A DNA stretch of 38,710 nucleotides from Oscillospiraceae bacterium (GTDB lineage: Bacteria > Bacillota > Clostridia > Oscillospirales > Acutalibacteraceae), in assembly GCA_015065695.1 (NCBI GenBank), contig SVPT01000011.1, forward strand, positions 1 to 38,710. The letters are read 5' to 3'. Below are positions 25,792 through 29,113 of the stretch, piece after piece; positions within the stretch are counted from its first letter, which is position 1; every line of letters begins with the position of its first letter. Position numbers and translations under genes: made by a program. The notes under the pieces were generated by a model. That model was not told the origin of the DNA. It saw nothing but the letters and a program-made list of their open reading frames with translations, and did not search any database.

Positions 25792-25829
25792 AGACACGGC
25801 AGACTCACCACCTGCCGTGTCTTTTTTTG
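25792..25829 (+). terminator. tuf terminator
   Basis: AGACACGGCAG / CTGCCGTGTCT, an 11-bp perfect stem with a 9-base loop, is followed by seven Ts. It is a textbook Rho-independent terminator. Confidence 0.93.
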
Positions 25830-25883: not shown

Positions 25884-25912
25884 TTGACACTACCCTGACG
25901 AAGAGTTATTAT
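25884..25912 (+). promoter_or_regulatory. Promoter of the tandem GGDEF genes
   Basis: TTGACA, 17 bases, TATTAT, about 40 bases before the TTG start at 25952. No cyclic-di-GMP riboswitch fits in so short a leader. Confidence 0.72.
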
Positions 25913-25951: not shown

Positions 25952-27124
25952 TTGTCCTTTGTTACACAGCTAAGCATTGGCTGGTTCCCGATAATAATTG
26001 TACTGATAATATATTTTGACAACCACCGGGTACAGAGGTTTTCTTCTGCGGACCAGATATTTGACTGGCTGCTGCTAAGCACCATTGCTCTGTCGGTGTC
26101 ATCGATTTTTTCATGGTTTCCCGAGGGTTATACTTCCCCCAACTCACGCTCGGCACTATGGCTGCTTAACATTATCTACCTGTCATTCTCCTGTCTTGTG
26201 CTGTATCTGTGGATGCTGTACAACAGCGTACAATTGCAGGCCAACCAATCTATCCTGAAACGTCCGCTGCTTCTGTCACTGCTTTCTGTACCGGCAGCAG
26301 CGGTGATTCTGCTTGCGGTAACCGCACCGCTTACCCGCCTGCTTTTCTTTATTGACAGGGGCAACCACTATCAGCGTGGCATTCTTTACCTTGTTCCTTA
26401 TATTGTGGACCTTTTCTACATAATCGCAGCAAGCGGGATTGCGCTGAATCAGTTCTTCAAGGCGAACACTGAGGAGCAGCGGCGCAACAGCCTTGTGCTT
26501 GCCACCTTTGCCCCTCTGCCCATACTCGGCATTATTCTGCAGTCGCTTATTGAGGGGCTGTGGCTTGCCATTCCTTTTTCCGTCCTTTCTATCCTCATCG
26601 TTTACATCGTTATCCAGAATCAGCGCATTACCATTGACGCGCTGACCGGTCTGAATAACCGACGTGAATTCTTCCGATATACAAACGAGCAGATGAAGAT
26701 GGGTGCTTCCATTTGCCTTATCATTGCGGACATTAACCATTTCCGCGAAGTCAACAGCACATACGGACGCACCGTTGGCGACGAGGCTCTGCGCCGCTGT
26801 GCTGATGTCTTCCGTGAGACATTTCCGCAGACCAAGACATTCCTCGCCCGTTACGGCGGTGACGAGTTTGCCTTGATCGCTCCATGCGACGACGATACTC
26901 AGGCAAAGCACATCGTTGACCGAATTAACAATGCATTTGAGCAAAGCTCCACCCGCGGCTCATATCCATATGAGCTTTCGGTCAGCATTGGATATGCGCT
27001 TTACGACAAGCGATACAGCGGCGACATTGATTCTCTCATTGACAAGGCTGACAGGCAACTCCGCCGCTCCAGAAGCATACAAGGCATCGGCTCCAACACT
27101 ACCGGACAGGGGGGAGCAAAATGA
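25952..27124 (+). CDS. 7TM-type membrane diguanylate cyclase (canonical GGDEF)
   Basis: GGDEF domains make cyclic-di-GMP from two GTP as dimers. This 390-residue protein starts at TTG 25952, seven bases after AAGGGGGG. About seven hydrophobic helices fill residues 8-222, with an outward-looking loop IDRGNHYQRG (about 134-143). The catalytic domain follows: DALTGLNNRREFF (229-241), the metal motif ADINHFREVN, VGDEAL, and RYGGDEF with intact GGDEF at 302-306. There is no RxxD inhibitory site at the expected place, so product inhibition is unlikely. The N-terminal module resembles 7TM receptor regions of sensor kinases and probably senses a signal in or near the membrane. The stop overlaps the start of the next gene (ATGA), so the two are translationally coupled. 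Confidence 0.92.
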   Translation: MSFVTQLSIGWFPIIIVLIIYFDNHRVQRFSSADQIFDWLLLSTIALSVSSIFSWFPEGYTSPNSRSALWLLNIIYLSFSCLVLYLWMLYNSVQLQANQSILKRPLLLSLLSVPAAAVILLAVTAPLTRLLFFIDRGNHYQRGILYLVPYIVDLFYIIAASGIALNQFFKANTEEQRRNSLVLATFAPLPILGIILQSLIEGLWLAIPFSVLSILIVYIVIQNQRITIDALTGLNNRREFFRYTNEQMKMGASICLIIADINHFREVNSTYGRTVGDEALRRCADVFRETFPQTKTFLARYGGDEFALIAPCDDDTQAKHIVDRINNAFEQSSTRGSYPYELSVSIGYALYDKRYSGDIDSLIDKADRQLRRSRSIQGIGSNTTGQGGAK

Positions 27125-28275
27125 CAGGAAGAGAATATTTCCAGATCAGCCTTATTCCTATACTGGCTTTGATAGTTCTTCTGGTGGATTCCTTCAAGCA
27201 GCTCAGTGCCCGCCACAAGGGCATACTGCAGTTTATCATGGTCAACATCATTACTCTGCTGCTCACAGAATCTGCCGCATGGATGCTCAACGGACTTCCC
27301 ATGCCATGGGTCAGGCTTACGCTGTGGGTAATCAATCTTGCCTATTTTATCCTCTGCGGCACTGTTGCCTATATGTGGCTGGTATATGTGTGCGCTGTTC
27401 AGTTTGCCGACTGGCACAATTTCGATATACGAAAAAGCTGCAGCATTGCGGCTATCCCGCTGGTGCTTTATCTGGTGCTTGTTGTCAGCACCCTCTTTAA
27501 CGGCTCGGTTTTCTCTATTGACGAAAACAACCTTTATCACCGCGGTCCGTACATCTTTGTACAGCAGGCAATGTGCATCGGTTATCTTCTGGCAGCCTCC
27601 ACGCTGTCACTGGTAACGCGCAGCAAGGAGGATATGCGTGACAAACGCAGCTTTTGTCTGGTTACGGCACTTTTCCCTGTATTGCCCTTTATTGGCGCTG
27701 TGCTGCAGATACTTCTCTTTGGCACGGCACTGCTCTGGCCCTGTGCGGCTGCATCTGTCGTTATGCTGTATATCCAGCTCCAGCGTATGCAGATATCCCT
27801 TGACTACACTACCGGTCTGAACAACCGTCTGTGCCTGGACAACTATCTGCAAGGGCTGTGCAGACGGCGCATTGAGCCATGGCATCTGATACTTATTGAC
27901 ATCAACGGATTCAAGAATATCAACGCCACCTACGGTCACCTGACAGGTGACGAGGTACTGCGCACTGTAGCTGAGCTTCTGCGTGAACACTTTGGCCACA
28001 GCGAAGCCTTTATTGCGCGGTACAGCGGCGATGACTTTGCCGTAGTGCTGCACGACACCGACAGCTACGAGGTTATCCTCAGTCTTTGTGAATCGCTCAA
28101 GACCATTATCAAGGAAGAGGGCATACGCCGCAATCTGCCCTATCCCCTATCCATAAGCGTCGGTACCTCACGATATGTCGGACGTCAGCTTGCCCTTGAC
28201 CACATCATTGACCTTGCCAAGCACCGTATGCAGGAGGACAAGAAGAAGCAGGTGACGGAGAGTACGGCGCAATAA
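27121..28275 (+). CDS. 7TM-type GGDEF-domain protein with degenerate SGDDF site
   Basis: Colinear paralogue of the preceding gene, 384 residues, with the same layout: about seven helices to residue 220, an outward loop IDENNLYHRG matching IDRGNHYQRG upstream, and a GGDEF-fold domain (TTGLNNRL, LIDINGFKNIN, TGDEVL). The signature at 302-306 is SGDDF instead of GGDEF, at exactly the same residue numbers as its partner. First-position Ser is tolerated in some active enzymes; Glu-to-Asp at position four removes the usual catalytic/metal-binding side-chain length, so activity is doubtful. It may be a weak cyclase, a GTP-binding regulator, or the non-catalytic half of a heterodimer with the upstream protein. 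Coupling by the ATGA overlap favours a matched pair. Confidence 0.92.
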   Translation: MTGREYFQISLIPILALIVLLVDSFKQLSARHKGILQFIMVNIITLLLTESAAWMLNGLPMPWVRLTLWVINLAYFILCGTVAYMWLVYVCAVQFADWHNFDIRKSCSIAAIPLVLYLVLVVSTLFNGSVFSIDENNLYHRGPYIFVQQAMCIGYLLAASTLSLVTRSKEDMRDKRSFCLVTALFPVLPFIGAVLQILLFGTALLWPCAAASVVMLYIQLQRMQISLDYTTGLNNRLCLDNYLQGLCRRRIEPWHLILIDINGFKNINATYGHLTGDEVLRTVAELLREHFGHSEAFIARYSGDDFAVVLHDTDSYEVILSLCESLKTIIKEEGIRRNLPYPLSISVGTSRYVGRQLALDHIIDLAKHRMQEDKKKQVTESTAQ

Positions 28276-28654: not shown

Positions 28655-29113
28655 ATGAAAACAATAGCCAGCTTTATGGTGGACCACACCAAGCTTGAGC
28701 CCGGTCTTTACCTTTCCCGCGTTGACGGCGATGTAAACACCTACGACCTGCGCTTTATCAAGCCCAACACCCCGCCCTTTATGGACACCGCTGCCATGCA
28801 CACCATTGAGCATCTTTTTGCCACCCTTGCCCGCAACAGCGAATACGGCAGCAACATCATCTACTTTGGTCCTATGGGCTGCCGTACCGGCTTCTATCTG
28901 CTCACGCGGGGAATGTCTCACCGCAATGTTATTGAGCTGGTCATCGACACTGTGCGCAGGATAGCTGCATGGGACGCGCCTATCCCCGGCACAACCGCCC
29001 CCGAATGCGGCAACTATCTGGAGCATGACCTGCCGGCCGCCAGAATATTGGCAGAGTCTTACGCAAAATGTATCGTTTATTGGACAGCAGATATGCTGGA
29101 GTATATTAAATAA
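28655..29113 (+). CDS. luxS: S-ribosylhomocysteine lyase (AI-2 synthase)
   Basis: Cleaves S-ribosylhomocysteine to homocysteine and DPD, the precursor of autoinducer-2, as part of the activated methyl cycle. Length 152 is normal. Metal ligands are H49 and H53 in HTIEHLFATLARN and C118 in ECGNY; E52 is the catalytic acid and C76 (FGPMGCRTGFYLL) the catalytic cysteine. ECGNYLEHDL closes the family pattern. Start ATG 28655 follows GAGGT. The nucleosidase gene that supplies its substrate is not adjacent. Placement directly after two GGDEF proteins and a small membrane protein suggests, but does not show, shared control of signalling. Confidence 0.97.
   Translation: MKTIASFMVDHTKLEPGLYLSRVDGDVNTYDLRFIKPNTPPFMDTAAMHTIEHLFATLARNSEYGSNIIYFGPMGCRTGFYLLTRGMSHRNVIELVIDTVRRIAAWDAPIPGTTAPECGNYLEHDLPAARILAESYAKCIVYWTADMLEYIK

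Follow-up and report, generated by a model that had tools for sequence, protein, structure and literature searches.

Two overlapping genes on the plus strand, called P1 and P2 below, lie 3′ of tuf in the window, i.e. the whole stretch of 38,710 nucleotides that was analyzed. Both encode a 7TM sensor followed by a GGDEF domain. The features of the locus are:

25792..25828, plus strand: intrinsic terminator after tuf, an 11-bp stem GACACGGCAGA...CTGCCGTGTC followed by a T run (sequence and RNA fold).
25884..25912, plus strand: promoter-like site of sigma-70 type, TTGACA-17-TATTAT, 11/12 (consensus scan).
25952..27124, plus strand: P1, open reading frame with a TTG start, 390 aa; 7TM sensor at about residues 1-224, GGDEF domain at 227-374, motif GGDEF at 302-306.
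26351..26380, plus strand: TM4-TM5 loop of P1, IDRGNHYQRG, residues 134-143 (family motif).
27121..27124, plus strand: ATGA, the four-base overlap of the P2 start and the P1 stop.
27121..28275, plus strand: P2, open reading frame with an ATG start, 384 aa; 7TM sensor at about residues 1-224, GGDEF domain at 227-377, motif SGDDF at 302-306.
27517..27546, plus strand: TM4-TM5 loop of P2, IDENNLYHRG, residues 133-142 (family motif).

The overlap of four bases given in the preliminary description was confirmed. SD-like sequences were found 5′ of both starts, AAGGGGGG for P1 and, within the 3′ end of P1, GGGGGGAG for P2. Read from these signals, the two genes are a translationally coupled pair. The order upstream is tuf, terminator, promoter-like site and P1/P2. 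The terminator has a calculated RNA fold of -21.3 kcal/mol (z -5.2), while the promoter-like site comes from a consensus scan, which alone does not amount to evidence of function. Since the terminator and the promoter-like site precede them, P1 and P2 probably constitute a single transcription unit of their own, outside the str operon.

The GC content of P1 and P2 is 50-51% (GC3 58-61%), slightly below that of most neighboring genes, and an Rfam search of the window gave zero riboswitch matches. On the 3′ side, the pair is followed by genes for a small DUF1648-like membrane protein, luxS and an M23 peptidase. The luxS gene (152 aa, 28655-29113) lies beyond the DUF1648-like gene, and no evidence links it functionally to the pair.

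The two proteins are homologous end to end, with 29% identity across 374 residues (E 3e-51), and both pass the cut-off of 23.8 for Pfam GGDEF (PF00990), P1 with 99.1 bits and P2 with 99.5 bits. By hydropathy, P1 and the mean of the family have seven hydrophobic segments; P2 shows the same arrangement with one additional overlapping window. The common topology ascribed to them earlier, seven hydrophobic segments and a GGDEF domain, is thus borne out. An outward loop with the pattern IDxxNxYxRG had also been put forward as shared by the pair. It is indeed present in the TM4-TM5 loops of both proteins, which probably face the outside if the GGDEF end is cytoplasmic, but it is a mark of the entire sensor family and therefore does not single out P1 and P2.

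With a two-row profile built on the N-terminal regions, relatives of the sensor were found in 42 of 398 family genomes and in 39 of 394 order genomes. At the class level, a 32-row profile gave hits in 80 of 391 genomes (E <= 1e-10). The output behind the sensor in these relatives can be GGDEF, GGDEF-EAL, HD-GYP-type HD, SpoIIE phosphatase, His_kinase/HATPase or hybrid HisKA-receiver. We know of no ligand for this sensor family. Searches with P1 and P2 gave zero matches to Pfam sensor domains, HisKA_7TM (PF16927) included. Almost the whole length of HisKA_7TM is matched by two relatives of 7TM-GGDEF type that score above its cut-off of 28.6, L060 with 41.7 bits and L053 with 38.7 bits. As these relatives pass the cut-off and P1 and P2 do not, the kinship of P1 and P2 is indirect, and their sensors can be described as divergent HisKA_7TM-type sensors by way of L060 and L053. 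They resemble HisKA_7TM in length, in the seven helices (from the hydropathy of P1 and of the family mean) and in the position ahead of the output domain, and differ from it in the lack of a direct match and in having GGDEF instead of HisKA as output. An AlphaFold model built from two sequences was poor, with a pLDDT of 59.

The active sites were compared with those of 34 GGDEF relatives having the same sensor. The signature starts at residue 302 in both proteins and reads, at 302-306, GGDEF in P1 and SGDDF in P2, exactly as first described; the motif [G/A/S]G[D/E]E[F/Y] accommodates the former and not the latter. In addition to GGDEF, P1 retains the metal-binding Asp260, the guanine-contact residues Asn268 and Asp277, and Arg300. 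Its earlier designation as canonical holds for the pentapeptide, but five other sites, each kept in 32 of the 34 relatives, are changed (K265R, D269S, H273R, Y371R and K374R). The departures of P2, with the number of relatives out of 34 keeping the site, are L230T (33), D269A (32), G302S (29), E305D (32), D367K (31) and Y371Q (32). The Asp following Asn268 is accordingly missing in both proteins, with Ser269 in P1 and Ala269 in P2. Six other A-site residues are essential in EcGReg (R306, D333, F337, D342, D350 and L353; PMC5549716), and five of these are kept in P1 and P2, while the equivalent of D342 is lost. Elsewhere in this genome, GGDEF domains mostly retain the ND and Tyr/Lys sites, so the losses in P1 and P2 are not a habit of the lineage. 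Asp277 is retained in P2, which therefore is not of the Hypr cGAMP type. The product-inhibition site RxxD (I-site), expected five residues ahead of GGDEF, is absent from both proteins as previously noted (QTKT in P1, HSEA in P2); it is present in 8 relatives of the comparison set. Taken by their residues, both GGDEF domains are worn, P2 more so in the signature itself, and the formula of one canonical and one degenerate protein fits the pentapeptides only. The related proposal that one copy kept catalysis and the other diverged agrees with the more worn signature of P2, but not with the absence of the Asp after Asn268 in P1.

Two further observations concern other GGDEF proteins. The 7TM-GGDEF relative L032 (genome G059) has GTDRF in place of the signature, with YGR and R..R changes that resemble those of P1. 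The genome that carries P1 and P2 (83% complete) has 12 GGDEF, 3 EAL and zero PilZ matches, and a c-di-GMP effector is not apparent in it.

The lost residues raise the question of whether both proteins are non-catalytic, in which case the GGDEF domains would be nucleotide-binding or dimerization modules that signal through protein contact. In EcGReg, the D342A mutant (corresponding to position 269) and the E377A mutant (fourth motif position) are null, and K338A is partially active (PMC5549716). Both P1 and P2 have lost D269, and Tyr371 as well, the YGR ... R..R pattern of P1 is like that of the clearly degenerate L032, and a tandem pair with the same sensor in genome G1118 has GGDEF-type domains without the signature. 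However, P1 retains the full GGDEF, the metal Asp, Asn268, Asp277 and Arg300, both domains reach 99 bits against Pfam GGDEF, and neither has an I-site for binding c-di-GMP. We therefore regard the loss of catalysis in both proteins as unlikely.

It is important to point out that single changes like those in P2 do not prove inactivity, because some proteins with GGDDF or SGDEF are active. GSU1937 is an active GGDDF protein, but no effect was seen with PA3258, a GGDDF/EAL protein (PMC8835794); SGDEF is active in ECA3270, while Ser inactivated VCA0965 (PMC3974145). GSU1937 (GGDDF), ECA3270 (SGDEF) and VCA0965 (AGDEF) are comparable to P2 as active natural variants, each at one position (PMC8835794, PMC3974145). 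P2 differs from them in that both position 1 (Ser) and position 4 (Asp) are changed, and in having also lost D269.

P1 and P2 could then be neighboring diguanylate cyclases, each active independently of the other, for which DgcA and DgcB of Listeria monocytogenes (lmo1911-lmo1912) offer a close architectural parallel. Their genes lie 20 bp apart in the same direction within one operon of a Firmicute; the products are paralogous polytopic-membrane GGDEF proteins sharing about 30% of their residues, and each is active alone (PMC4125290). They differ from the present pair in that their sensors are described as having six or eight helices, the genes are separated by the 20 bp gap rather than overlapping, both are active, and a PDE gene is in the same operon (PMC4125290). 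The activity of SGDEF and GGDDF in some proteins also favors two cyclases, as does a near-tandem pair in genome G754 with GGDEF intact in both genes. On the other hand, P1 and P2 have both lost the Asp that follows Asn268, together with other residues that 31-33 of the 34 relatives retain, and no mention of an SGDDF cyclase was found in the literature searched. Independent activity of the two proteins seems unlikely.

The pair had been interpreted as the result of a duplication. Paralogy is upheld by the identity and E value given above, but a recent split is not, with branches of 1.5-1.7 and no mutual best BLAST match. In two trees P1 and P2 join with support of 97/85 and 98/87, but the branches leading to them measure 1.5 and 1.67 changes per site, and their joining was flagged by the program as a meeting of long branches. 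With P1 or P2 left out in turn, the remaining one goes beside L051. By BLAST, P1 scores higher with L051 and others than with P2, and P2 higher with L075 and others than with P1. The join in the trees may be a case of long-branch attraction. The identity between P1 and P2 is no higher than that to singletons in other families; as they differ from each other as much as from these singletons, any duplication behind the pair is, on this comparison, old. A recent duplication is ruled out by the BLAST ranking together with the long tree branches.

The preliminary description had also proposed a search for the pair in relatives. It was found neither in congeners nor in the sampled family genomes, an outcome that by the description's own terms counts against a conserved pair. 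No sensor relative was found in the congeners G001-G003 (80-87% complete) at the sensitivity used. The family was sampled twice with some overlap (398 and 396 genomes) and yielded no orthologous pair; in these genomes the sensor is absent or its copies are separate. The same gene order with the same motif split was not found in the congeners or in the family or order draws. In G002, the stretch 3′ of tuf has other genes and no 7TM pair; G001 and G003 gave no tuf match. A contig scan of named genomes had Sulfuricurvum as its sole match, at the GGDEF level only. The pair is seen in one genome only, and co-evolution and selection cannot be read from a single genome.

The post-tuf position in G002 that corresponds to that of the 7TM pair in the window (L048:190-4470) is occupied by two adjoining minus-strand GGDEF-type genes unrelated to P1 and P2. 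Their products are a protein of 410 aa with a degenerate YAGAVF and one of 1013 aa with two GGDEF-type regions and an EAL.

Other tandem arrangements of the sensor family do occur. In G754, 584 bp separate two 7TM-GGDEF genes that are both intact, and G908 has the same two types with one gene between them. In G1118 (L087:847-3941), a 7TM protein with a degenerate GGDEF is followed after 24 bp by one with a degenerate GGDEF-EAL-like output, possibly a receptor pair without cyclase activity. In G1051 (L088:999-4110), two tandem genes of the same architecture, about 17 bp apart, encode 7TM-SpoIIE-type phosphatases. Because the tandem sets differ in make-up each time, they do not follow a conserved scheme in which one member is intact and the other degenerate, and by this comparison the pair is a lineage-specific instance within a widespread receptor family.

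These results bear directly on the original proposal that the duplication yielded a receptor-cyclase that is a heterodimer and senses through its two 7TM modules. Co-translation and the joining of P1 and P2 in the tree (98/87) are in its favor, but the divergence is as deep as that to other families, the join was flagged for long branches meeting, and the pair was not seen in relatives. A diguanylate cyclase dimer forms two bonds, one at each half-site. Since each subunit supplies one half-site (PMC5549716), ring closure to c-di-GMP would not be expected from a mixed dimer in which one half-site is dead. Heteromeric GGDEF contacts, which would suit such a receptor, are known in E. coli, with the degenerate CdgI among them (PMC5635695), but a GGAAF mutant of DgcP has been discussed as possibly dominant negative (PMC7033161). 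Neither recent duplication nor a heterodimer is supported by the comparative evidence, and we consider the heterodimeric receptor-cyclase improbable. Still more doubtful, and very improbable in our judgment, is an obligate hetero-oligomeric receptor, in which the worn half-sites would complement each other and only the mixed dimer would make a cyclic dinucleotide upon binding of a 7TM ligand.

The reading that we tentatively prefer, at somewhat less than an even chance, is that of a co-translated old receptor pair, in which P1, possibly a weak cyclase, is tuned by P2, a partner with little or no catalytic activity. Binding of a ligand, either on the outside or within the membrane, would alter the dimer state of the 7TM sensors and hence that of the GGDEF domains. 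P1, with GGDEF, Asp260, Asn268 and Asp277 retained, would probably act as a weak or conditional diguanylate cyclase, and P2, weakly or not catalytic, would tune P1 via GGDEF-GGDEF or membrane contacts. If P2 is dead, restraining or positioning P1 is likelier than completing it. The overlap with the SD-like sequence, the promoter-like site, the terminator, the full-length homology, the sensor kinship to HisKA_7TM by way of L060 and L053, and the active-site comparison are all consistent with this tuned pair. Against it, D269S might abolish the activity of P1 altogether, P2 could be active like GSU1937 with GGDDF (PMC8835794) and ECA3270 with SGDEF (PMC3974145), P1 and P2 have no direct HisKA_7TM match, and a single genome carries the pair.

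There are precedents in which a membrane protein with a degenerate GGDEF serves a cyclase as partner: the degenerate dual-domain DdpA is needed by the cyclase BdcA, and LapD by GcbC (PMC12805831). The heteromeric GGDEF contacts that include CdgI (PMC5635695) are another precedent for such tuning. DdpA and LapD differ from P2 in being GGDEF-EAL proteins, whereas P1 and P2 are tandem paralogues with the same sensor, known from sequence.

The sensor family to which P1 and P2 belong is widespread in this bacterial class. Its outputs there are of six kinds or more, and only intermediates reveal that it is related to HisKA_7TM. If the two proteins work together, they would represent a compact case in which a degenerate GGDEF partner and its cyclase are encoded on one transcript.
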